A DNA stretch of 64,000 nucleotides from Dichotomocladium elegans. Its lineage: Eukaryota > Mucoromycota > Mucoromycetes > Mucorales > Lichtheimiaceae. The translations under genes were made by a program, and so were the position numbers. Of the stretch, positions 1-61,947 are shown in pieces. The stretch spans positions 868,001 through 932,000 of the forward strand of contig JAIXMN010000014.1 in assembly GCA_025716815.1 (NCBI GenBank), written 5' to 3'. Position 1 is the stretch's first letter. Each line of letters starts with the position of its first letter. The notes under the pieces were generated by a model. That model saw only the letters and a program-made list of their open reading frames with translations, searched no databases and had not been told where the DNA came from.

Positions 1-1137
1 TATGCCTGTCATTGACCCGGGTCATCGCGGTATTCTTTATGGGATGCATGAGTTGAGCCCGCCCAAGCTGCCCAAAATACACCCGTATACGCGCATCCAG
101 CGGGCCCGAGAAACAAGGATGGTGCGCTTTCGGCAGATACGTGACATCGCCAAGGACCATTATGGTGACATTAACACTATCCGCGAGACCGAGGCTAGGC
201 TTGCACAGATATCCCACAGCACCGTCAATGCCACCAGGTAAAAGCTCTTCATCGAGGCCCGAGGAAGGGAATGGTCAGTTCTCAGCTGCTTTTGCAGCAG
301 TACCACCACTATCGACGCATCTCATGCAGAGAAAGTATGGGAGTGCAAAGGGTGATTGGGGGAAGTGTTGAGCCCGGAAAATACATCCATATACTACTGA
401 TAATGAGGCGCATAATTACCCATTCCATCTGAAATTTCGTCTCTCTACCTATATCCACCAGAGACAGGCCGATGCTAGATTAGTGCGGACGATACGACTC
501 AGATTCTGATGGCACACCATAAATATCATGGAAGTTGGACTGCACCCATGGCCCATTACCATGAGCCCATCCTCGGCGGGAAATACTCAACAGGCGTTCG
601 TTCAGGGTGTAGTGGATTGACGAGTACCACACGTCCCTGACCTGTGCCAAGAGTTCCAGCCCCCCAGGGTCCTTTAAGCATGTGTCCAATCCGCGACCAT
701 AGCAGTAAGTAAACCGTCCTAAAGTTAAATGCCATGGGCTTTCAAGGTGTACAAATTTAAATTGTTTAAAGTCTATGGAAGAGGTTGCAGGATTGTCTCG
801 ATCGCGGCTTTGGAAGAGAGACATGGCTGCCGTGCTCAACTTCAGGCGCATCCTCCTGAACCTCCCGGCAATGGCGAAATTCCAGAACGGTTCAAATGTG
901 CCAAGTTTCATGATGATGGTGAAAGTGACCTGACAGCTGTTAAGCTTGCAAAACGCAAGGTACAGTAACTGCTGCTTCTGCCATGAAATCACGAGTGCCT
1001 TGCTGGCGCAAGCCTGACTCCTGCAATCCCGCCTGAAGAACTTTCCGGTCTTGTTATCGCGTGGTTAAGATGCAATAAGCAAGATCGTCGAGTCACTCTC
1101 CATTAGATGAACAAAGGGCAGGTAGCCTATAGCTGAG
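1..1137 (+). pseudogene. Fanzor-type nuclease pseudogene, copy 1 (5' end outside window)
   Basis: This is the 3' two thirds of a Fanzor gene, a eukaryotic TnpB-like protein family of RNA-guided nucleases often found in mobile elements. The window opens just before the first RuvC motif, whose Asp-Pro-Gly is readable near base 13. The frame is open to a TAA at 239-241, where copy 2 has a Tyr codon. Downstream the homology continues through several frameshifts. In the zinc ribbon only the first Cys is clear. The last RuvC motif (Trp-Lys-Arg-Asp followed by Ala-Ala-Val-Leu-Asn-Phe) is still legible near 810-850 in another frame. Nucleotide similarity to copy 2 continues past its stop and ends near 1137. 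The protein cannot be made from this copy. Family assignment rests on motifs and on alignment with copies 2 and 3. Confidence 0.85.
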
Positions 1138-1302
1138 CGGGGTGGGGAAAGAGCAGTACATCCCGCTGTGTGATAACAAATAGTCTTGAATTGACAATTT
1201 TCATGTTTTGCATATTGGATATGATGTAACGCTTTGAAGTTTGGTAAAAGAAAAGATTAGGCTATAAGCGCAAGAAACCTCGAAATTAGTGGATGCAATG
1301 CT

Positions 1303-6561: not shown

Positions 6562-9500
6562 ATGACTTCAACAGCCGTGAGGTACTTGTACTTATTCGGG
6601 TTACAATCCTGTCATTTCATTCATGCTTTAGATTGTCATTTCCTTGTTCTACTAGGGTGGCGTTGCGTGTTCGCCCACTGACTCAAAAAGAACAGCTCAG
6701 CAATTGCACAGAATGCCTCTCTTACATTCCGAACGAACCCCAGATCCTAATCGGCACCGATAAATCATTTACTTATGACTACGTCTTTGATACAAAGACA
6801 GACCAGAACAACGTCTATGAAACTGCTGCTGCACCGCTAGTGCAGAAATTGATGGATGGGTGAGATCATCTATATTTTGGCTTATTCTTTTGGTAGTTAC
6901 ATGCTCATCTAATTGTTTTCTTTTTTTCCTATGCACGCATCTTTGTAGCTTCAATGCAACTATACTTGCTTATGGGTACGCATACTTTATCCGGAGACTC
7001 AGAACGCACTTGATGGCTGACAATTTATTAGTCAGACAGGGTCTGGAAAAACATATAGCATGGGTACCGGTTTAGAGAACAGTGGCAGCTCACAGCACGC
7101 AGGTAAGCATGATGAACAAATCATTATATTCGTTATTCTGATACGTTTTTCCCTCAGGTATTGTTCCTCGTTGTATTTCTGAGCTCTTCGAGAAGCTAGA
7201 TGCACGCGCAGAACGAGAACCAGGCTATTCCTTTGAAATCTATGTCTCATTTCTGGAATTGTACAATGAGGAGCTTGTTGACCTACTAAACCCCACAAGT
7301 ACTACCCAGAAACGTAAAAGTACCAATGGGACTATTACCGGCACAACAGAGGTCACCATACGAGAAGATACTGCTGGAAACATATACTGGAGCGGGGTTA
7401 AGGAGGAGCGATGCTTTAGCCCTGAAGAGCTTTTAGGGTATTGCATTATAAGCTTCTGTATGCAACTGCTGAGATCCTTACCCCTTCCCCTTTAGTTTAC
7501 TTGCAAAAGGCTCCTTGTGTCGGACGACCGCATCTACTGATATGAATGCTGTATCTTCACGTTCCCATGCAATATTCTCCGTGATATTGCGACAACAAGA
7601 ACCTGATGGGGACAGGACCAAGTCCTTGACGAGCAAATTCCATTTCGTGGATTTGGCTGGATCCGAACGGGTAACACTGAGATCGTCTCCTTCTCGTCTC
7701 CTCGATGTATGCTAATCCCAAAATAGTTGAAGCGAACAAATGCTCAGGGTGACCGTGCAAGGGAAGGAATAGCTATCAATGCCGGCCTGCTCGCTCTAGG
7801 CAATGTTATTTCTGCACTTGGAGACGAAACGAGACGTCCTACCCATGTCCCTTACAGAGACTCAAAGCTGACTCGCCTCCTCCAAGATTCACTCGGTGGC
7901 AATAGCCAGACGCTTATGCTTGCCTGTGTATCGCCAGCAGACATTAACTTCATGGAGACATTGAATACGTTGAAATATGCGAACCGTGCCCGTAACATCA
8001 AAAACCGTGTCACTGTAAACCAAGACTTTGCTGGGAGCTCAATTGAGGTTAACCAGCTTAAGGCACTAGTAGGGCGCCTTCGAATGGAGATCGCTGCCCT
8101 CCGTGCAGAATCATCCGGATCTGCAGAACTGTCTTCAAACACAGACCAAGTTCATGCTCTAAAAAACGAAAACAAACGGCTACGAGATCGCATCGATGAC
8201 ATGTCGGCTGAGCTAATTCAGACATCCAGTGAACGCGATATGCTATTGATGGAGCGTGAACTGGGCGAAATTGTAGCAGATACACTGCAGCAGCAGGAGC
8301 AAAAGCAAGAGCAGGGCAGGAGTAATACATATATGGAAAATGTTCATCCCCTCATTATCCAATATCAAAAGAAAATACAAGACCTGACAAACGAGCTTGC
8401 CGATACACGTGATCGACTCACTTTTTTCGAGGATATAAAACCAACCATACAAGCTATGGCACTTACGAAAGCCAGCATTTCTGGAACCTTTTCTGGCGCG
8501 AACAACAGGTCCCGGATTGAGCCAAGCATATCTTCCAGACGCAGACGTGTCCGTCGCCGACGCGGCGGACGCGTTAGTGCATCGTCTAGCAGCAACACAG
8601 CATCCAAAAAGGCCGGAGATTTAGAGAAGAAGAATATGTCAACAACCATTTTTCCTGATGCTGATGAAGACGAAGGTTTTGTAAACGACATTCAAGACGA
8701 GGATATCCGTAGAGAAGTCAAAGACAGCATTGCGAAGGCACGTGAGGAAATCCGAAAGGGAATGGAGGTACTGGAGCTCATAAAGGTAAAGTATAATTCT
8801 CATGTACAAGTCTTCATTTATAACAAGCAGGGTCTAAACTTCTTCTTACTAGCCATCGGATGAAACAGCGAAGGCATGGGAGGATGAACTTCAGGAATTC
8901 GAGGAAAAGGAACGTCAGATCCATATGAACCGAGATTTGTCTGATGAAGGTACTTATTCAGCATTAACGTCACCGACCTACGAACAACATTTCCTTCATA
9001 ATGAGAGCGATATTATGGATGACCTTGAAGATTTGGTATGTAAAGCCATTTTACATAGAGAAGAGTGATCTAAAGACGGTTTAAACTGTTTTATATACAG
9101 GCTGTACCGGCATGGGAGAATTCAGCAAAATTAAAATTATCATCCCGCTCAGCCACAAACCAGACACTTGATGGCAGCAACACCTTAATAGCATCAGCTG
9201 ACAAATATAACCCTCAGCTAGTGCGGATACTTCACCAGATTCAAGCAGACATCAAAGTGAAGGAGGATCTGGTTTCTCACCTGGAAAAATCAGAGACCGA
9301 ATATATATTTATGCGCCGGAAGTTTGACGATAAGATCTCTCATCTTCAGGCGCAATTAGCAGAGCTGCAGCGCGAAAGAGACTCGGCTGTAGACCGCACA
9401 AAAACCCGCCTCAGGTCGAAGTCCGACGTCTCCGTTCAGCAAAAGGAAAAGCAGCAACTCAATGAAATACGAAATGCGTATGAAGCAAAAACAAAACTCT

Positions 9501-11656
9501 TACTCTCTGAAATTCAAGACCTTCGACGCAAGTATGCTCAAATGACCTCGGCAATGCAAGCTACGCGCAACCAAAATGAAACGCTGCTCCGTTCGCTTCG
9601 CGCCAATGTGGATTCTTTACAGGTTGAAAAAAAGCGGATGGTGAAGCGAATGAAAGTCGAAACAGAACGAGTTCGAGAACAAATGTGTACTCAAGAACGA
9701 AAAATTCACCAGCTTCAACGGCAGCAGGCAGAAGCTACGATGGCTAAGCGTCGGCTAGAACGTGAGCATGAGACGCAAAAGATGATGCTCAAAAAACGAA
9801 ACGAGGAGATCCTTGTCAGTCACAGTCAACTTAAGCAAATGATTAATATCCTGAAGAAAGCCGTACGTGAAGGTGGTATGCTTGATGAGCGTCTTTTGAG
9901 CCGAGTTTCGCACATTATTGGTGGCAATTTTGCGATTGTCGCACGAGGCGGGTTCGGCTTCAACAATCAAAATCGGATGGGTCGCAAGAAAGTGAATGCC
10001 ATTCCGGTGCAAGTACGCGCAAAACGAAAGAAGCAGCTGCTAGATAAGGCCTTGAGCCAATACATTCAGGGCAAACAAGCAATTGTGGAGATGGAGCAAC
10101 TTCTCGTGAGACGCGAGCGGCTAGCTGCAGAGAAGATTGAACTCCTTGACGAACGCAAACACATCTTCTTTGCAGAGAAAGAAAATGCGGAATCAACCGG
10201 CATGCCTATGGACATGATGGCCATCGAGCTGATGGATGAGCGGATAGATCTCATGTCAGCCGAGATATCATATCTATCTGCACGAATACGATCGTTGCAG
10301 TCGGAAGCTGCAGGAGAATCTATGGAAGATGAGAACCAGACACCTGTAAATATTCGCGCCGAAAAGCACGTTACATTTGCCGACGAGATCGTAGCCGATT
10401 CTGCGCCTACTGATGAATGGGCCGATATGGATGCATTTGAGGAGCAATTCAGCGTCCCAAGCTGCGCTGCACCAGAGGTCGCCTACGATGTTACCCTTAA
10501 AATTCTCAAATCCCTAGAAGCTGACGAATCTAAACGAATTGCCCAGGTCCTTGTAGACGATATCATGGTCCTTCGGATGAACGAGTTCAATCGCCAAGTT
10601 GCTCACCAGAACCTCGAAAAGACTGTTATGGACCTGAGACGAACGCTTATTGTCATGAAACGCGCCGCAATCGCAACCACTGTTGAAAACGAACGTCGTA
10701 TTCGTAAACTTGAAGAAAGCTTTAATGGCTCGGATGACTGCGACAAAACTCTTATGGACACGAAAATCGAAGATTACATCAACAGCGGTAACACCATCTT
10801 CGACAAGATATATGAGGATGGTCTGAGAGGTTTGATAGTCGATTCCGAAGTCGAAATGGAATACGCTCTAGGCAGTGATCCACAGGATGGTCCGCTTAGG
10901 CCAAGCATAGAGTCGCCCTTTGATGAATGCGCTAGTCATACGCCAATGCTTCCTGAGAAAGCACCCCAATCACTCAAGCAGAATCGTGACATTACCCCAT
11001 CACCGGATCGTTTCCTGAACATGATTCAGAAAAGACTTTCATGGCAACAACAGTCAGGGGGTTCAGACTCACCCGTACCGATTACTATGATTAGTCCTGC
11101 AGAATTTGCTCGTTACGCTACTGATAGAGACTCATCCACGTCCTCAATTCGAAGTGGACATCTTCGCCGAAACTCCCTCCCGTCCGATTATTCTTCAACT
11201 CAATCACAGCGGTCTTGGAATAACATACTTTCAAATACCAGTCAAGGTCCTTCGCATAAAGCCCTCCAGCACCTTCCGATACATGAACAGTTGCCTTCGG
11301 AAGACGATGATCATGCTGTAAATCCTATCCCCAGCCTCAGGGACAGTGTCGTCTCCCACTCGGACTATAATTTTCAACCCCCTCTTCCACCTTCGTCCCC
11401 ACTTGCTGTGTATTCATCGACGCCATCGACGCCGAAGCAGTATAAGCGCCACACAATGCCGGTGTATTTGCCTACAATGACTCAAGACCGACCGACGACT
11501 CCTGCAACAAATGGTGGCGATGTCTTTGCTCGACTTTCTCAAACGCCGACAAGAGCGTCACGTGCCAAACAGCGCCATAGCAGCAGCAGCGTGGAAGATC
11601 TTAAAAAACAGTGGGATGGCGTGGCTCGGGAGGAAATGACAAGTCCCTTTTATTGA
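6562..11656 (+). CDS. Kinesin-4 family motor (KIF4-like)
   Basis: Nine exons join into an uninterrupted 1524-residue protein: 6562-6581, 6656-6859, 6949-6975, 7032-7102, 7158-7437, 7496-7670, 7727-8785, 8853-9035 and 9101-11656. All introns are GT-AG. The N-terminal third is a plus-end-type motor domain. It has the P-loop GQTGSGKT at about residues 84-91, switch I around SSRSHAIF, switch II DLAGSER, and the microtubule-binding stretch [20 protein letters not shown]. The segment [20 protein letters not shown] is characteristic of the kinesin-4/KIF21 group. Long coiled coils follow, then a Ser/Pro-rich tail. A very basic patch ([11 protein letters not shown]) near residue 530 could bind nucleic acid or act as a nuclear signal, as in chromokinesins. 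The likely role is spindle or chromosome-arm transport. The first exon codes only six full codons, so that start is a little less certain. Confidence 0.95.
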
Positions 11657-12394
11657 TACCCTATTCCTTTTTTCGTATTCCTTTCAATATCGCCACCAGT
11701 AATCTCGACATCTCGTGTTTTATAGGACGGTGTTTATTATTATCTAAAAGTCGTGTACAATTCTTATTTCATCATATCACTGGCGCCCCCTTCTATTATA
11801 CTGTAGTTGACAGAGTAAGAAAACGGCAATATCGAGATATACTATTAGCAATTTGGATCCGATATCGTAACATCCATATGCTCAAGAAAACGATTGCTGT
11901 TGCAAAGACAAAGAAGCATGGCCAAGGGACATTATATTCGGTTTTTGCGATTGCGGTGTCACGTGGGTTGGCCCATAGTCTACAGGATTTTTCCTAGCCA
12001 TTCAGCCAGTTGAACTTTTTGTTTGCGGGTTATGAAAATAGTTTAGCGGCTGGGTAGCATATTAAATTGCGTGATGGCACAAATATCATTTGACATTCTT
12101 GAAGATGACTTTGCAGAGCCAATACAGGAGTATCTATTAGTAATAACGCCTGTTGGCTGACTCAGTCACCCAGTCAGACTATGTTCAGTGTGGCACGGGC
12201 AGCGACTCCAGACGACCAGAGCTGTAGTCTCACAAGAAGTGATGATTTGTGATAGAAATGCCACAGAACCTTGCGCGCGGCATAAATGCGACTGATCATT
12301 GGTCATCTTTCGATCAATTGACAACTCAAGTTTTACTATATATATGGGCTACCGGCCTCAGATTACGTGTCCCTTCCTTTCCTTTGTACCGATC
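11657..12394. other. Spacer between the kinesin and Fanzor copy 2
   Basis: This holds the kinesin 3' UTR and the 5' flank of Fanzor copy 2. A TATATATA run at about 12338-12345 lies some 50 bases before the Fanzor ATG and could be its TATA box. No terminal inverted repeat or target-site duplication marking the left end of the Fanzor element was found. Confidence 0.4.
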
Positions 12395-14600
12395 ATGGCC
12401 GACGCCAAGACCAGGGTCATCAAGACCTCTTTAAGGTCTATTGGGTGGAAGCAGCAGTATCTGGAGAACCTGGAGAACCTGGTCCGGACTACCCACTTTC
12501 TCACCACGCACACATACCAGCTCTCGCGCTGGATCCTCCTCCACGAACTGGAACGCGGCCATGACTTCAACCCCTGCGAGCTCATCGGTCAAGCATTCTT
12601 CTATGAAGTTTTCCTCAGTCTGGCCGGTAGGAAGTTCATGCGCGAGAAGGTCAAGCCGTCGACCAAGACTATTAGGACCCTCATAAAGACACACCTCGAA
12701 GGCTACTCGAAGGCTGCCAACATTGAGCCTGGACAACATCCCGACATGTCCCAGGTCGCAGCCTATGTCAGCACCGAGATCATGACTGCCTACAAGGTTA
12801 ATGTCCAGCAGCGGTTTGGCGAATGTTTACGGCGCGTTGTCAACAGTCTGTTGAACGCGCGTCAGCGGAAGGAAGCTATACGCAAAGAAATGGTTAGCAG
12901 CGATGAACACGAGTTCCGCCAGGTCTGTGAGGAGAGAATCTGGAAGCCAGCCCGTCAAATCAAGGAGGCACTGCGACGCAGAAACCCGAATCACAGCAAT
13001 CTCACACCGGAAGCCCATCTCATCCTCGCTGAACTGTCACCGATCCTTCAAGCGTACGACGACACTTATAAGTTCGCCAAAGATGACATCTACTATGATG
13101 TGAAGAAATCTCCAGGAAAACGTCTCAATGCTTTTATCAGCTCTGCAAGTTCCTAGAGACGAGGGATGCAAAGTCAGTCCAGTGTTTTCCTCTCCGGACT
13201 TCTTGGATTCCATGCCACATCCACATCGACACGCGAATCCTCTGCCAGCATATATCAAGGCAGGCATCCACTAAAGACCCACCGATTGAGAAGACATGGG
13301 GGAAGGTACTTGACCTCAAGTCCAAGACATTCAAGGATAGGCATGACAGGAGGTTTCTTTGAAGCAATACAAACAGACGGAGTGTCTGTATCAATCATAC
13401 TCAAGACCCCTGAGGCAAAGAAGAACCTTAGTTGTAAGCGAACCCGGACTGATACCGGTGATATCATAACCGATGACAGTGCTCTGGAGCCCGAACGCTT
13501 ACATTGCCGACAGCATGAGGAACAAGGGCGCTCGGAGGGATCAGAGCAAGAACAATCACTCCGCAGACTGTTCCTACATTCATGACATCCCACATGACGA
13601 GCTGCAAGAGACCGAGGGCAAGTGTCTTCTCATTGATCCAGGCCGTCGCGATCTCCATTATGGGATGCATGAGTTGAGCACGCCCGAGCTCCCTAAAATA
13701 CACCGGTATACACGCAACCAGCGCGCCCGAGAAACACGGATGGTACGATTTCGTCAGATACGCGACACTGCCAAGGATCGCTATGATAACAAAAACAGCA
13801 TCCGCAAGGCCGAGACTAGGCTTGCACAGATATGCCACAGCACCGTCAATGCCGCCCGGTACAAGCTCTACGTCGAGCCCCGCGCAAGGGAGTGGTCACT
13901 GCTCAGCAGCTTTTACAGCAGAACCACCACAACCCATACGACATCGACCCATCCCGGACACAACAAGTACGGGCCGGCAAAGAGCGACTGGGGAAAGCGT
14001 CGAGCCCGAAAGATGCATCCGTATGTAGATCATGAGGCCCACAATCATCCGCTCCATCGGAAATTACGCCTCTCTGACTATATAAACCAGAAGCAGGCCG
14101 ATGCTCGATTGGTGCGCACTCTACGACGAAGATTCGGAAAGGACACCGTGCTTGTCATGGGAAACTGGTCTGCACCCATGGCCCGCTTCCACGAGCCCAT
14201 CCGCGGCAAGGGCTGGAGGGATATATTCAAGAGGCATGGGTTCAAAGTTTATTTAATAGACGAGTACCGCACCTCCGTCACCTGTCCCGAGTGCTCGAAC
14301 CGCTTGGAGACCTTCAAGCGTATTCTCAATCCACGACCATGGCAGCGAATAAAGCGTCCTGAGATCAAATGCCACGGGCTTCTAAGGTGTACAAACCCAA
14401 ATTGTTTGAAGTCCATGGAATTCTCTCGCTCGCGGCTTTGGAACCGAGACACAGCAGCGGTACTCAACTTTCGGCACATCCTCTTGAGCCTCCGGACCAA
14501 CGGGGAGATCCCAGAGCGATTCCGACATGCCAAGGCCACTGCAGCAGCAGCAACAGCAGCAGACAAGAAGAACTTTCCGGCCCTGTTATCGCAGGGTTAA
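12395..14600 (+). pseudogene. Fanzor-type nuclease, copy 2, best preserved but frameshifted
   Basis: This is a eukaryotic homologue of TnpB, the RNA-guided DNA nuclease family. The start ATG at 12395 is shared with copy 3. The first frame runs about 250 codons (an N-terminal region unlike prokaryotic TnpB). Homology then changes frame near 13145, near 13350 (one extra T compared with copy 3) and between about 13450 and 13540. The segment in the second frame, CFPLRTSWIPCHIHIDTRIL, is a typical Fanzor block. From 13473 a 375-residue frame is fully open to the TAA at 14598. It contains RuvC-I (Asp at 13635-13637 in LLIDPGRRD), the segment DEYRTSVTCPEC, a second zinc-ribbon half CTNPNC, and the terminal LWNRDTAAVLNF with the RuvC-III Asp. 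This fits the family pattern Asp, then Thr-Ser, C4 zinc finger, then Arg-Asp. The full-length homology equals about 735 codons. The catalytic-half frame might still be translated, but the gene as a whole is broken. Confidence 0.9.
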
Positions 14601-14669
14601 GATGCTATAAGCAAGATGCTCAGGCCACTCTCCATTCGACGAATAGAGGGGAGGCACCCTAAAGGTGAG
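14579..14669 (+). ncRNA. Candidate omega-RNA (guide scaffold) 3' end of Fanzor copy 2
   Basis: Copies 1 and 2 align without gaps through the stop codon and for about 69 nt beyond it, to 14669 and 1137, and then similarity vanishes. Three hairpins can be drawn. CCCTG/CAGGG has a 6-nt loop (14581-14596). TGCT/AGCA lies at 14603-14613. CTCTCC/GGGGAG at 14628-14653 encloses a nested ATTC/GAAT. In TnpB and Fanzor systems the guide RNA overlaps the 3' end of the nuclease gene and runs to the element boundary, where the guide begins. The match to that layout is suggestive, but no RNA evidence is available here. Confidence 0.45.
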
Positions 14670-14827
14670 ACAACTTCGTAATTGATTTGCTATTCTGCTA
14701 ACATTCTCACGCATATATTACCTCTATCAAAATGCAAATACTACACACTGCTGGCGTAATATTCATCACCGCGTGGCGCAAACTTGATTGCAAATAATAG
14801 TACTAAGTGGGGTCTGTTCCTGAAAAA

Positions 14828-16430
14828 AAAGCATACACCATTTTCCAAAATCAAGATGTCGCACAAAAAAGTTTGGCAAATCCATCTTTATAAAAATCGT
14901 CCTTTTGACTCTTTCTCTTTTATACACTTTTCCATTCTGAAATGAGCAACCTATTTTTTCTACTGCGATGAAGAAAAGTACTCTCTGCAATCCGTTTGTT
15001 CTCACCCTGAATATCTGCGCAGCATATATTACAGAGATAACTCTGATCTTATTACCACACACATTCACAAGCGAAAGGATACAGGCATTCGGATGAAGGA
15101 AGCGGGGATCAAGCGCAGTTACACAGCATAAACTGACCAAGGCAAGGGCAGATTTTTCAAATGGATGTTTGAGAAGGTTTTGAGTGCATCAGCTGTTAGG
15201 AATCCATGTTCGTTCAGCCCAGCGATGGGCATTACAGTACGAGAAAGACCCTGAGAGCATCTTTAAGAGACCTAAAGCTAGGGGTCGTTCGCGTATTCTC
15301 AATGAAGAGCTTTATTTTATATTGCATTGATGAGAATCCATCCATTGTTCTAGAGCAGCTGATGGAGCAACTGCTTCAAAGATTGGAGAGTCTCAAAGCA
15401 TCTAAAATGAATGCTCCGTCGATTTATGAAAAACGAATGCAACTTATTAAAAATGGTTCGGTTTCAGCCTGTAGACAGGAATAGTGCTGCGAAGATCCTA
15501 CAGCACCTTGACTGGGTGCGCAGATGGGGCAGTACAGAGATCGACTTGACGAGGCTGGATTCCGTATTAATATGAAACCCAGCATCGCATGCTCCAAGAA
15601 AGGAACCCCTGCAGTGGTCACAATACCAAAGGCAAGAGCAAAAACAACCACAATCTCGGGAGCAATCTCAGCTTCAGGGATCATTAAATGTTGCTTGAGA
15701 CTCCCGCATCCACCAATCAAGAAAAGAAAGAGGGCAGGTCAATCTAAATGTATGATCAGAGGAACTGTAACTGGACATTATCTAAGCTTCCTTAAGGCTA
15801 CGATGGGATGAGATGGATAAGTATGAACATATGAAGGGGCCATTATTGGGTAATGGATAATGCACCTATCCATAAGGCTGAGGATGTAGCTAAATACATT
15901 GACTGTCCAGGATATCAATGTGCTTATCTTCCACCCTATTGGCCTGAACTCCATCTGATTGAGCAAAGTAAAAGGCAACAGGTTATCCGTCATACCCACT
16001 AGTTCCATCCTGCAACCTTCTAATATCTCGGATCCTCTGCAGATAATGATATAAGCCTAACCCAAGTGCCTTGAGAGGAGAGGATGTGGGCTTTGGGTGG
16101 GACTGTGGTTTGGCTGCACCCGCGCAATTCCCCCACCATGGCTTTGTCGAAGTGCTTTTGTCTTCGTCTACTTCCTCTGTTGCTTTCCCTGATGCTTCTG
16201 CCGCTGGTGTTTTTGCTGGTCCGTCGTCGTCCCTCCCCGTTCTTTCTTCCAACCCTTCCGCCGTCAATGCGCAACAGCACCGGCTTCTTCCTTCCCTCCC
16301 TTTTCCGCCATTGTTACCGCAATGCCACACCTAGCTACCTTCGTGGTAAGTTGAAGAGTAAGGACTAACGGGTATATGCATGCGACAAATTTTATGTTTT
16401 TATGCGACATTTTAGAATGCGGAGAAGGGC
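14828..16430 (+). mobile_element. Decayed Tc1/mariner-family transposon, copy A
   Basis: A broken DDE transposase reads on the plus strand. The start resembles that of copy B (ATG at 14942, Met-Ser-Asn-Leu versus Met-Gly-Asn-Leu). There is a helix-turn-helix region near 15070-15270. Near 15590-15720 lies KKGTPAVVTIPKARAKTTT followed by GAISASGIIKCCLRLP, and then GTVTGHYLSFLKATM. Around 15850-15970 the DDE motif block is readable as WVMDNAPIHKAEDVAKYI and CAYLPPYWPELHLIEQ. Frameshifts and stops interrupt it many times. The left end (about 14830-14875) and right end (about 16380-16430) carry GTCGCA or TGCGAC motifs in inverted orientation, as in copy B. The element lies 160 bp after Fanzor copy 2 and directly before the ATP1 pseudogene. 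It cannot move on its own. Confidence 0.85.
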
Positions 16431-46834: not shown

Positions 46835-48962
46835 ATTTTCAAAAATAAATGTCGTGCAAAATACAAAAAAAATGTCGCATTGAATTATATAAATTTGTCG
46901 TATCAATAGGCAAAAAGATTTCGCATCCATGGATTAAAACCTGTTAGTCAACAGAAAAACACTACTCCTCCATACGCTTTAACTTACACTCAAGGGCCCC
47001 GAAGGACCCAGGATAACTCCTGGGTAGTCCCGGCGATAACCGGGACGGAGAGACAGGACGGGAGAGCCAGCACACCAGAAGAGACAGGCGGCGGCTGCCA
47101 GGGCGCCAAACGAGGGAATGGCGGCGGCGGCGGAGGGAAGGAGCGAAATGGGGCCTGTGGTGGCAGCGAAAAAGAGCGGAAGGGTGTTCAGGAACTCCTC
47201 TCTTCCATGGCTCATCAAGCACGGGTACGATTGGTTAATCTATAAAGGACAGTGGATGTTAGTTGCAATAATCATACCGGATAAGACCATGGAAGAGAGG
47301 GTCGGGATGAAGTTGATGGAGAAAGGAGATTTCTCGGCTGTCCATTATTTGTAGGAAATCAAGGAGGAGCAGAAGAAATTTCTTTGTGATAAACGATGCT
47401 GCAATAGATACAGCGGCGGATCATATGCTCTTTTCATCGACTCACTGATCCTTTAATCGGTACAGAAGCTTGGAAACGTCCTGTATTGCATTCGAATAGT
47501 ACTTCCATAATTTCTTTGTGATGAACGATGCTGCAGTAAATACAGCGGCAGTAACTAAGCACATATGAGAATGAGAAACGAAACCTTCGATATCGCTCAG
47601 CTTTAAGCTATTGGATGCTTCGCTGATCTGTGTTATCAACAATCTCGCTTTCCAAGAACCTATTCCATTTAACTTTGCTATTGACCACTGACCAAAACTG
47701 CTCAATAGGATTGAGTTCAGACGAGTATGGTGGAAGATAAGCATATCGACATCCTCGACACTCGATGTATTCAGAGATATCCTGTGCCGTATGGATAGGC
47801 TCATTATCCATTACCATATAATGGTCATTCCTATGTTCATACTTATCCATCTCGTCCATCGTTGCCTTAAATAAGCTGAGGTGATGTACAGTTGCAGTTC
47901 CTTTGCTCCCAACTTCAGATTGACCTGCGCTCTTCATTTCTTGATTGGTGGCTGCGGGATTCTCAAGCTACATTGAATGATGCCTGATGCTGAGATTGTT
48001 CCCACAATTGGTTGACTTTGGTACTGCACCCACTGCAGGGGTCCCTTTCTTGGACCACACCATGCTGCATTTCATGTTAAAATGGAATCCAGACTCATCA
48101 AAGAAAAAAGGCAGCTTTTTGCAAGTCGATGTCGGTCCTATCCCATCTGCGCACTCAGTCAAGGCGCTCTTGGATCTTCGCAGCACTATTCCTGTCTATA
48201 GGCTGAAACCGAACCATTTTTAATGACAGTTGCATACGTTTTCATAAATCGATGGAGCGTCGTTTTAGATGCTCTGAGACCCTCAAGTCATTGGAGCAGC
48301 TACTCTAGGGCAATGGATGGGTCTTCATCAACGCATTCTAAAACAGTGCGCTTATGCTTTTCATTGAGAATACGCGAAGGGTCCCCCCGTGTTAGGTTTC
48401 TTAAAGATGCTGTCAGGGTCCCTCTCGCACTGTAATGCCCATCGCTGGGCTGAACGAATATGGAGACCTAGCAGCTGACGCACTCAAGATCTTCTCAAAC
48501 GTCCGTTTGAAAAATCTGACCTTGTCTTGATCAGTTTATGCTGTGTAACTGCGCTTGATCCCAGCTTCTTTCATCCGAATGTCTGTATCCTTTCGCTGGG
48601 GAATGCGTGTGGGATTAAGCTCAGGGTTATCTTTGCACAATATGGTACGCAGATATTCAGTGTGAGAACAAACGGATTGAAGTGAGTACATTTCCTCATC
48701 AATGGCATAGTCCATAGGTTCAAAACAGCCACGCTCATCAACGACATGACCTTGGCCGTCTTGATAGAAAATTAGGTTGCCCATTTCAGAATGTAAAATG
48801 TATAAAAGAGAAAGCGGGTCTTTCCGTGTATGTATGTAACATTCGATTTGTCATCACGCGTAAAGATTTCTGGGCAAAATGCGATTTGTATTTTTGCGAT
48901 CCTGCGACTTTAGAACTGGCAGAGTGCGACTTTGATTTTGAAAAAGAGTGTATAATGGATAT
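46835..48962 (-). mobile_element. Decayed Tc1/mariner-family transposon, copy B
   Basis: On the minus strand the transposase starts with MGNLIFYQDGQGHVVDERGC at 48784 and is open for 82 codons. It then decays through many stops. Recognisable later blocks are a helix-turn-helix region (about 48530-48430), KKLPFFFDESGFHFNMKCSM and SKKGTPAVGAVPK (about 48140-48020), and the DDE end block YMVMDNEPIHTAQDISEYIE and YLPPYSSELNPIEQFWSVVN at about 47815-47680. Imperfect inverted ends at about 46838-46930 and 48865-48962 share TTTTCAAAA followed by repeated GTCGCA-type motifs. The orientation is opposite to copy A. A hypothetical small frame lies inside its 3' part. Confidence 0.85.
46979..47345 (-). 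CDS. Small hypothetical protein (low confidence)
   Basis: Two exons (47345-47278 and 47210-46979) would give 99 residues. The product has a short polar N-terminus (MDSREISFLHQLHPDPLFHG) and a hydrophobic Ala/Leu/Phe-rich middle that could span a membrane. The proposed intron begins GTATG and ends AG but uses the second available acceptor. It falls inside the limits proposed for Tc1 copy B, which makes a genuine host gene less likely. No family was recognised. Confidence 0.25.
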
Positions 48963-59064: not shown

Positions 59065-60079
59065 TATAGCAGATAATAATACAAGTAGCGATGAGAAAAA
59101 CGCAGAGCGAGATAGAGAAGAGTGAAGGGGAAAGGGGGACGAGAGGATTGGGGGGTGGGCGTTAAATTTCTTGAGGGAGACCGGGTTACACTCGGACGCG
59201 GGGGAGAGGGGAAAGGGCTATTGGAGTTTTCTCAGCTATTCAGCAAAATGATTTTGCATTGTGCCTTGCCATCATTGCTGCCAGCCGCCGCTGGCTACGT
59301 CGTCGTTATCATGACATCAAGAGAGGCATCAAAATCACCGCACGCTTCAGAACGCATCACTGTCAGCAGCGAGGGCAGTGTTTCTTTGTGCTTCAATGAT
59401 ATGCTTTATGAATAGGAACATTGCCAGCTACTATGCCCGCACCCCACAAAACAAAGGCTTTCCTCCATGGATGGCGATTGACGCGAGTTCCAACGCAGGA
59501 AGTTCTTCACTGTGTAATACTGTACTGGGCTTGGGATGGTACTTCGCTCATAAGTGACATATGCTGGCTATTGATCCAAGTCATATGCTGCTCAACTTGT
59601 TGCTCGATAAAGACAGAGACTACGGGCGGGATTTTCTCGCTGGCAACCTGTTGGCAGGGGAAGGGAACTAAACACTCTATGTGCTAAGAAAATCGCAGTA
59701 TGAGGACTCATGATTTCTCTGTTAATAATAAGCCCATTGGAATGCTTAGCAGAAGGTCGATCACCAAAAATGGCAGGAGGAGTGTTATCATTTGTCTAGT
59801 AGCTTCTGTTTTGAAAAGATGCTCAGGCTGGTCGCCAGCAGCATCAGTAGAAGCGTTGTTTTTTTGATCCTCGACCCACCCAGCATACCTCTTGCGCCTT
59901 ATTTACGTAATCTCAGCAAACTCTTCTCTACGTTGCACAGAACCATTATTAGACATGGACAAGGAAATGCATAAATAGTTAATGAATTTATGAGCTATCA
60001 GCATAAATATAAGTTGTCTGAGGTGCTCTTTCCTTTTTATTCCAACTCAATACTTGCCAAACCCACTACTAGATCGATA
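59065..60079. other. Spacer between the PP2C gene and Fanzor copy 3
   Basis: It holds the PP2C promoter (purine-rich, 59100-59160) and the 5' flank of Fanzor copy 3. No gene or terminal repeat was identified. A short AAAATCGCAGT at about 59690 resembles a Tc1-family end but is too short to count. Confidence 0.4.
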
Positions 60080-61947
60080 ATGGCCGAAGGCAAGGACCGC
60101 GTTGTCAATACCTCTTTGAAATCTGTTGGGTGGAAGCAGGAGTACCAGGAGAACCTGGAAAAGCTAGTACCGACTACCCAGTTTCTTACCACTCACACAT
60201 ACCAGTTGTCGCGCTGGATCCTCCTCCACAAGCTGGACCACAACCGCGACTTTGATTCCAGCGAGCTCCTCGGCCGAGCATTCTTTTATAAAGTATTCCT
60301 CAGTCTAGCCGGGAGAAAGGTCATGCGCGAGAAAGTTAAACCGTCGACCAAGGCCATTAGGACGCTCATACAGAGACACCTTGAAGATTACACGAAATCT
60401 GCCGACATTGAGCCTGGGCAACACCGCAACATATCCCAGGTAGCGGCCTATGTCAGCACTGACATCATGACAGCCTACAAAGTAATGTTCAGCTGCAATT
60501 TGGCGAGTGTTTCCGATGCGCTATCGACCCTCTGTTGAACGTATGCCAGCGGGAGGAAGCGACGCAGAAACCCTAATTTGAATAGCCTCCAGTCGGAAGC
60601 CCAGCACATCCTCGCTGAGTTATCATTGATCCTCCAAGCATACGGCGATACTGATGCGTTCGCAGAAGATGATATCTACTATGACATCAAGAATTCTTAG
60701 AGGCAAGAGGGGCAAAGTCAATCCAGTGCTTCCCTCTCCAAACTTCCTGGGTGCCGTCCCATAGGCACATCTACACGCGAATCCTCGGCCAGCATATATC
60801 AAGGCATGCATCCACAAAAGCACCATCGATCGAAAGGGCATGGGGGAAGGTACCTGACCTCAAGTCCAAGCCATTCAAGGATAGGCATGGTAGAAGGCTC
60901 TTAGAAACGGTACAAACGGATGGAGTATCTATATCAATCATACTCAAGACTCTTGACGCAAAGAGGAACCTTAGTCGCAAGCAAAATCGGGCTAATGACG
61001 ATAGTACGAGGAGCAAGGACACTCGGAGGAGGCAGAGCAAGCTCGATCACTCTGCAGACTCTTCCTACATTCACGCCATCCCACAAGACGAGTCCAAAGA
61101 CACCGAGGGAAAATGTCTTCTCATTGACTCGGGAGATCGATGTTCTTTATGGGATGAATGAGTTGAGCATGCCCGAGCTCCCCAAAATGCACCGGTATAC
61201 GCGCAACCAGCGGGCCCGAAAAACAAGGGTGGCGCGCTTTCGGCAGATACGTGATATCGCCAAGGATCGTTATGATGACGAAAACACTATCCGGGGAGGC
61301 AGAGGCTAGACTTGCACAGATATCCCACAGCACCGTCAATGCCACCAGGTAAAAGCTCTTCGTCGAGACCCGAGGAATGGAATGGTCACTTCTCAGCAAC
61401 TTTTATAGCAGTACCACCATTACCCATACGGTATCAACGCACGCCGTGCACAGAAAGTATGGGCCGACAAGGAGCGACTGGGGGAAGCGTCGAGCTCGAA
61501 AAATGCATCCATATACTACTGATCATGAGGCGCACAACTACCCGCTCCATCGGAAATTGCGTCTCTCTGCTTATATCCACCAGAGACAGGCCGATGCTAG
61601 ATGAGTGCGGACGATACGACACAGATTCGGAAGGGACACCATACTTGTCAGGGGAAATTGGGCTGCACCCATGGCCCGTTAGCATGAGCCTATACCTGCG
61701 GCAAGGATTGGCGGGAAATGTTCAAGAGACACGCGTTCAGGGTTTATTTGATTGACGAGTACAGCACCTCCGTGACCTGTCCCGAATGCTCCAGCCGCCC
61801 GGACTCCTTCAAGCGTGTCCCCCCAATCGGCGACCATGGCAGCAAGCAAAGCGTCCTGAAATTAAATGCCATGGGCTTCTAAGGTGTACAAACCTAAATT
61901 GTTTGAAGTCCATGGAAGAGGTTACGGGATTGTTTCGGCCGTGGTCG
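60080..61947 (+). pseudogene. Fanzor-type nuclease pseudogene, copy 3
   Basis: The copy starts with the same ATG context as copy 2 (Met-Ala then a charged stretch leading to TTQFLTTHTYQLSRWILLHK). It is open for about 153 codons and then shifts frame near 60490. A segment of roughly 40 nt present in copy 2 is missing near 60690. From 60751 to about 61130 the linker region, broken in copy 2, is open here and reaches RuvC-I (CLLIDSGDR). A one-base deletion then shifts frame near 61134. A TAA at 61350-61352 is shared with copy 1. The segment DEYSTSVTCPECSSRP and the second Cys pair are still legible in parts near 61760-61900. The sequence breaks off at the microsatellite at 61958 before RuvC-III. 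This copy cannot be functional, but with copy 2 it shows the ancestral layout. Confidence 0.88.

Follow-up and report, generated by a model that had tools for sequence, protein, structure and literature searches.

A decayed Fanzor1 element of Dichotomocladium elegans and its ghost and intact relatives

The locus at 12395–14669 (+) of the window, i.e. of the whole stretch of 64,000 nucleotides from Dichotomocladium elegans that was analyzed, is the dead remnant of a transposable element with Fanzor1 as its only gene, an ordinary relic. Position 12395 is the ATG of the Fanzor N-terminal part and 14669 the point where similarity to the module of Fanzor-less ghost elements stops, the element itself running to 14800. 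The genome of this mucoralean fungus (family Lichtheimiaceae) harbors the dead family of the window copy (family A), an older family of ghosts (family D) and a younger family (family B). Our explanation as a whole, a dead family A element with Fanzor1 as its gene that would have relied on a transposase acting in trans, on a guide RNA from its own 3′ end and on homing, is considered likely.

The 375-codon open frame at 13473–14600 (+) represents the catalytic half of a Fanzor1 gene. The motifs quoted for it in the initial annotation are all present and follow the order LLIDPGRRD, IDEYRTSVTCPEC (= DEYRTSVTCPEC), CTNPNC and WNRDTAAVLNF. In phmmer searches against PDB chains the frame matched Fanzor1 of Parasitella parasitica (9cf0, E 1.5e-61) and of Spizellomyces (8gkh, E 5.4e-37) and, weakly, that of Guillardia (E 0.23). 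A 40-row profile composed of the sibling gene model P0001 and 38 other distinct proteins, one entered twice, recovers the three solved Fanzor1 chains with E 3.5e-197, 7e-99 and 2.8e-25, so that the Fanzor identity assigned at the outset agrees with both searches. Pfam returned only Cas12f1-like_TNB (E 0.0015, below the curated cut-off) for this frame. The D-E-D RuvC triad is found together with a C4 zinc ribbon then RD, the latter being the Fanzor1 motif as given in PMC3627910. In alignment A3 the P0001 columns D339, E548 and D610 vary hardly or not at all; by residue count they correspond to window codons 13635–13637, 14262–14264 and 14448–14450. The RuvC plus zinc-ribbon order that had been proposed is borne out. 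Among the best 120 of 291 protein matches, homologues outside Dichotomocladium come from Coemansia, Rhizopus, Pilaira, Helicostylum and others, and a phage collection searched with the locus gave no match.

When aligned to P0001, the reading starts with an N-terminal part, shifts into two other frames for its middle and closes with a C-terminal part of 94% identity across 364 residues. This amounts to three frameshifts, the number roughly estimated before from the window sequence. The Fanzor reading is accordingly distributed over four stop-to-stop segments (12296–13156, 13099–13362, 13157–13585 and 13470–14600; see also Table 1). The P0001 gene model begins inside the protein, and its first residues differ from the reading started at the 12395 ATG.

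Table 1. Features of the window copy and its flanks (positions refer to the window).
Feature	Position	Strand	Basis
Family A Fanzor element, window copy, 2.8 kb	11983–14800	+	Similarity among copies starts and stops here
Left flank, C then TA (presumed target-site TA)	11980–11982	+	15 of the 16 independent copies of family A have C ahead of the left TA
Left terminus common to a DDE_3 transposon	11983–12116	+	78–80% over about 137 bp to L047 and L053
N-terminal Fanzor segment (first)	12395–13156	+	Frame reading, P0001 alignment
Frameshifted middle, two frames (13099–13362, 13157–13585)	13099–13585	+	P0001 alignment
Catalytic half with RuvC and zinc ribbon, open over 375 codons	13473–14600	+	PDB phmmer, invariant or nearly invariant D/E/D columns
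102-bp module overlapping the ORF end; candidate 5′ part of guide RNA	14568–14669	+	22 places outside family A; no covariation
Right end, candidate 3′ part of guide RNA, ending in right TA	14708–14802	+	Common to ghost elements
Right flank, inferred guide place	14803–14817	+	Flanks differ between copies; length taken from SpuFz1 (14–15 nt)

Similarity among the copies of family A spans TA-CAGGATTTTTCC (TA at 11981–11982) to AATAATAG-TA (TA at 14801–14802), the element thus having TA at both ends. The window copy begins about 320 bp past the ORF 9221–11656, which we take to be kinesin-like. About 18 elements belong to the family: a query with the 5′ end gave 18 long matches at 84–100%, and one with the 3′ end at least 18 among the best 40 of 79 candidates scored. 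The ORFs are mostly broken in the copies read, and none of the longest open ones (722, 698 and 669 codons) contains all of the motif strings sought. Codon changes were counted in nine copies, including two from a segmental duplication (L004 and L005), with an expectation of 2.62:1. Private changes (N 137, S 48, omega 1.09, p 0.68 vs neutral) and shared changes (N 24, S 11, omega 0.83, p 0.58 vs neutral) alike demonstrate that the family A ORFs decay neutrally, with omega about 1. The only long ORFs in the 2.8-kb element are the Fanzor pieces, none of them a DDE transposase, and a repeat search of the window copy found no terminal inverted repeats. The missing repeats and the way the left end starts had prompted Helitron and IS607 readings, which were set aside because of the TA at both ends and the DDE_3-type terminus.

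Several further Fanzor remnants were observed. At 59221–61917 (+) the window contains an older A-type copy, termed copy 3, whose left end is preceded by C-TA and whose 5′ region resembles that of ghost elements, and at 9–1189 (+) a fragment of another A-type copy including the 3′ module (about 1037–1160). The 5′ piece of a family B-like element lies at 14834–15965 (+), its left end about 30 bp past the end of the family A copy, and a degenerate family B-like element at 46842–48945 (−). On contig C112 of genome G000 (about 211–231 kb; L010/L031, L034), a segmental duplication contains a B-like Fanzor element with two copies of family A nested within it, and both of their 3′ regions are split by an insertion of about 2.1 kb.

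A candidate for the mobilizer of family A, or for its relative, is a DDE_3 transposon represented by ten copies (91% or more) plus two short pieces. One copy (L048) has broken ORFs with matches to HTH_23 (E 6e-6) and DDE_3 (E 1e-4), another (L053) broken ORFs with a match to DDE_3 (E 4e-16), and in both the ORFs read toward a terminus that is 78–80% like the left end of family A over about 137 bp. The same ORFs were recognized by translation in a third (L056), where the very end is missing. The match to family A concerns the left terminus, the other end being unmatched to the right end of family A, and the transposon's ORFs are broken in the copies read. Among the open-licence PMC papers listed, none was found to describe a DDE transposon with the terminus of a Fanzor element for Mucorales.

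Family D combines the element ends and the 3′ module with the lack of a Fanzor ORF. Among 40 matches to the stretch 14568–14669, which consists of 33 bp of ORF end with the stop and a further 69 bp, 22 lie outside family A, and the right end (14708–14802) is likewise common to ghost elements. As a sample, 20 places were read over 600 bp each, 12 obtained by the module search and 8 by the right-end search. At 16 places the module was present in full or in part, and no Fanzor coding was seen apart from the ten codons overlapping it, an absence that applies within the 600 bp, with about 170–230 bp upstream covered in 12 of the 16. A Fanzor C terminus occurs upstream at two places (L110 and L118, E below 0.001), and the right end without the module at two others (L111 and L117). 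Four loci read over about 3 kb each (L101, L105, L112 and L114) proved to be elements of about 0.9–1.0 kb, all without a Fanzor match (best tblastn E 0.12). They match a family A left terminus, either that of the window copy or that of L003, the module (partial in L105, from 14591 on, and in L114, from 14595 on) and the right-end sequence. When the best 40 left ends were combined with the best 40 right ends, at least 14 pairs within 6 kb were obtained; ten of the 14 listed measure 657–1095 bp and four 2165–3398 bp, and three of these four overlap Fanzor matches. Since its 5′ half resembles window positions 59247–59756, upstream of copy 3, family D looks like an internal-deletion product of the older Fanzor lineage to which copy 3 belongs.

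In families A and D the base next to the terminal TA is conserved on one side. Among the 16 independent family A copies (18 minus one segmental duplicate and one without terminus), 15 have C and one has A before the left TA, which is itself mutated in three copies. In family D and its Fanzor-bearing older kin the base is C in 22 of 22 cases (25 places, with L105, L124 and L131 unscorable and four with mutated TA placed by eye in the alignment), giving 37 of 38 scorable copies overall. The base after the right TA is variable, with T 6, C 5, G 3 and A 2 in the 16 independent copies of family A and A 8, T 4, C 2 and G 1 in the 15 of 20 family D places that could be scored. A symmetric target preference would give G after the right TA; this mirror G is seen in 4 of 31 cases as against the 37 of 38 with C on the left (p 7e-14). 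As a control, nine independent copies of the DDE_3 transposon, whose left terminus is homologous, were scored (L052 and L153 counted with their twins), and the base before TA is G 5, A 2, C 1 and T 1. Its single C in nine differs from families A and D together (p 2.5e-7) and from family A alone (p 7e-5). As background, C precedes TA in 18% of the cases in the window. In family B, all 12 scorable left flanks have TA ahead of the left TA (L014 unscorable, five further stretches without the end in view), and TA follows the right one in 12 of 18. Here the left–right difference is not significant (p 0.057), and the flanking TA may reflect a preference for a palindromic TATATA target.

For Spizellomyces punctatus, the bases conserved beside the left repeat, on its upstream side, are reported as CA, at ghost loci too, and the measured TAM of SpuFz1 is CATA (PMC10432273). 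Based on this analogy the TAM was predicted from the left flank: that of families A and D should end in CTA, and that of family B, less surely, should be TATA. An alternative, judged less probable than not, is that the C is the first base of an extended element end and neither host DNA nor TAM. Its near fixation would fit, and the reading keeps its weight because no empty site was found when the left and right flanks of family A and the right flanks of family B were compared with the read loci and in one whole-genome search. In the nested case on C112, moreover, related B elements carry A and not C at the position in question; this case is ambiguous because the right flank connects to B sequence about 540 bp farther along. 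The mixed bases before the homologous DDE_3 terminus, however, argue against an extended end, as do the SpuFz1 elements and ghosts, where a fixed CA is found and CA plus TA is the measured TAM. We favor the C as part of a putative TAM in the flank.

The 3′ end of the element is a candidate guide RNA, judged by its position, its common retention in families A and D, its overlap with the ORF end and precedent. The right flanks vary between copies, and the 3′ module and right end are conserved. For SpuFz1 the guide length is reported as 14–15 nt (PMC10432273). Hairpins are predicted for the 102-bp module, with folding energy z values of −2.51 to −0.74 for four sequences; folding of the right-end 95–99 nt in eight sequences, one from family B, gave z −1.51 to 1.20. 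The module displays no covariation: 90.1% of cells are paired compared to 90.4% in shuffles, one two-sided change stands against 2.1 in shuffles, and 36–55% are paired when the partners are slid. An Rfam search of 11900–15000 gave nothing up to E 1. In view of these two results, the guide RNA is proposed by position and conservation only. Conservation within family D is 0.78–0.86 for the module together with the 140 bp that follow it, only mildly better than the 0.69–0.80 of the 160 bp upstream.

The module could instead be a transposase-binding site, a terminator or a 3′-UTR element, which appears unlikely to us. Such a role would be compatible with the lack of covariation, the mild advantage in conservation over the surroundings, and a location 39–135 bp from the element end, which makes the region larger than needed if the published scaffolds of 75–150 nt rule. 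It accounts less well for the overlap with the ORF end, for the joint retention of module and right end in Fanzor-less elements, and for the same retention in SpuFz1 ghosts and bacterial PATE-like elements. These points favor a putative guide RNA.

Because family A decays neutrally, the distinct family B appears from its codon changes to be the better candidate for activity. The initial annotation had suggested looking for intact relatives in the same genome, and family B is both intact and under purifying selection. It shares 50–57% identity with the window frame over query residues 194–311. Many copies possess a read-through frame of 737 codons, and a 639-codon ORF is present in all of the first 15 copies read. 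The zinc-ribbon codons are interrupted by a 69-bp GT-AG intron, its exact pattern being kept in 14 of 15, and spliced L015 yields 709 aa that include DPGRRD, DEYKTS, WNRD and both zinc knuckles. The right ends number at least 40 at 92–100% identity (best 40 of 341 candidates scored), and identity among copies is 98–99.6% in family B, 84–100% in family A and mostly 70–89% in family D.

As the first 15 family B copies had been picked for long frames, eight copies with shorter frames were also read. In the total of 23, shared changes, i.e. those in more than one copy, which stand in for inner branches without a tree, number N 13 and S 33 (omega 0.16, p 1.3e-9; expected 2.53:1), and private changes N 108 and S 80 (omega 0.53, p 3e-5). 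Transitions were weighted 4:1, and L146 was aligned over 1430 of 2196 bases. The eight shorter-frame copies alone gave N:S of 6:27 for shared and 85:55 for private changes, with five stops among the latter. Judged by these counts, inherited changes are strongly constrained and private ones less so, as expected of an element that spreads while its nuclease is kept in working order. A codon selection test of such kind on Fanzor copies was not found among the open-licence PMC papers listed.

That this purifying selection is due to a role in the host or to a direct contribution to transposition, and not to RNA-guided homing, is less probable than not. Selection alone does not name the function, and the biological role of Fanzor in eukaryotes is called unknown by the SpuFz1 authors (PMC10432273). 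Nevertheless, the at least 40 copies with closely similar right ends look more like a spreading element than one kept gene. That the window frame is a chance open frame or an unrelated zinc-ribbon protein, as its Pfam matches below the curated cut-offs might suggest, is refuted by the PDB phmmer, protein and profile searches and has virtually no probability left.

In the proposed mechanism, a cut-and-paste transposase that targets TA and acts in trans probably mobilized the live element, with the DDE_3 transposon as the candidate source, and the one gene of the element would have made an RNA-guided nuclease. The scaffold of the guide RNA would have come from the 3′ end (14568–14802) and the guide itself from host DNA in the flank. 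The nuclease would cut an emptied or not-yet-occupied site beside the left-flank motif (the TAM, predicted as ...CTA), and repair from an occupied copy would put the element back. In D. elegans as a whole, Fanzor might serve TA-targeted transposons as an RNA-guided homing nuclease, with family B alive and selected, the motif in the element's own left flank (CTA for family A and the ghosts, TATA for family B) and the DDE_3 transposase as mover; this broader idea is put forward tentatively and is less probable than not. If true, it would connect Fanzor in a eukaryote with one named type of transposase and give it a directly testable role. The idea becomes testable since dead, older ghost and younger selected families exist side by side, the motif predictions can be assayed and a candidate transposase is at hand.

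The system was compared with published work (PMC10432273, PMC11423790, PMC3627910, PMC10711439, PMC7290912 and PMC11870625); among the open-licence PMC papers listed, none on Fanzor in Dichotomocladium was found. PpFz1 (9cf0; PMC11423790), likewise from Mucorales, belongs to the same family over REC, WED, RuvC and zinc ribbon. According to that paper, it is distinguished by a cyclophilin-binding insertion of about 100 residues, a 75-nt guide-RNA scaffold and the TAM ATN, whereas the elements described here have a shorter segment that is maybe an intron, a longer candidate RNA region and a predicted TAM of ...CTA or TATA. The segment in question is formed by P0001 residues 425–484 (window about 13900–14060), 60 residues at the FRI site of PpFz1, against about 30 in most other rows of A3 and 63 in the Coemansia protein P0063. 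An FRI (cyclophilin-binding) insertion was considered for P0001, in which one of the two contact prolines is aligned by count, and the claim was dropped because the DNA could be a short unspliced intron. One sentence of PMC11423790 prints the TAMs of GtFz1 and SpuFz1 in reverse order compared to the 2023 paper and to its own later text.

The relation to Fanzor1 in Tc1/mariner and other DNA transposons lies in TA-flanked carriers that may encode Fanzor only (PMC3627910). There, the paper describes terminal inverted repeats identical to those of confirmed Mariner members, while here one terminus was matched; some Mucorales Fanzor1 elements are assigned to MuDr in the same source. Family D resembles a PATE-like element of bacterial IS605 (PMC7290912) in being reduced to its ends and keeping the last bases of the nuclease ORF with the whole right end; the latter, as presented in that source, is bacterial, follows IS605 chemistry and occurs as one copy. 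Spu-1 and the ghost loci of S. punctatus are similar in having Fanzor1 as sole ORF, many Fanzor-less ghosts carrying a 3′ module and conserved bases adjoining the left end. PMC10432273 gives 30-nt inverted repeats and no transposase found for Spu-1, in contrast to the lack of such repeats, the DDE_3 transposon with a common left terminus and the conserved C before TA in D. elegans. As ghost elements and a left-flank motif have already been published for Spizellomyces, family D and the C-TA motif are of the same kind and do not constitute a new one.
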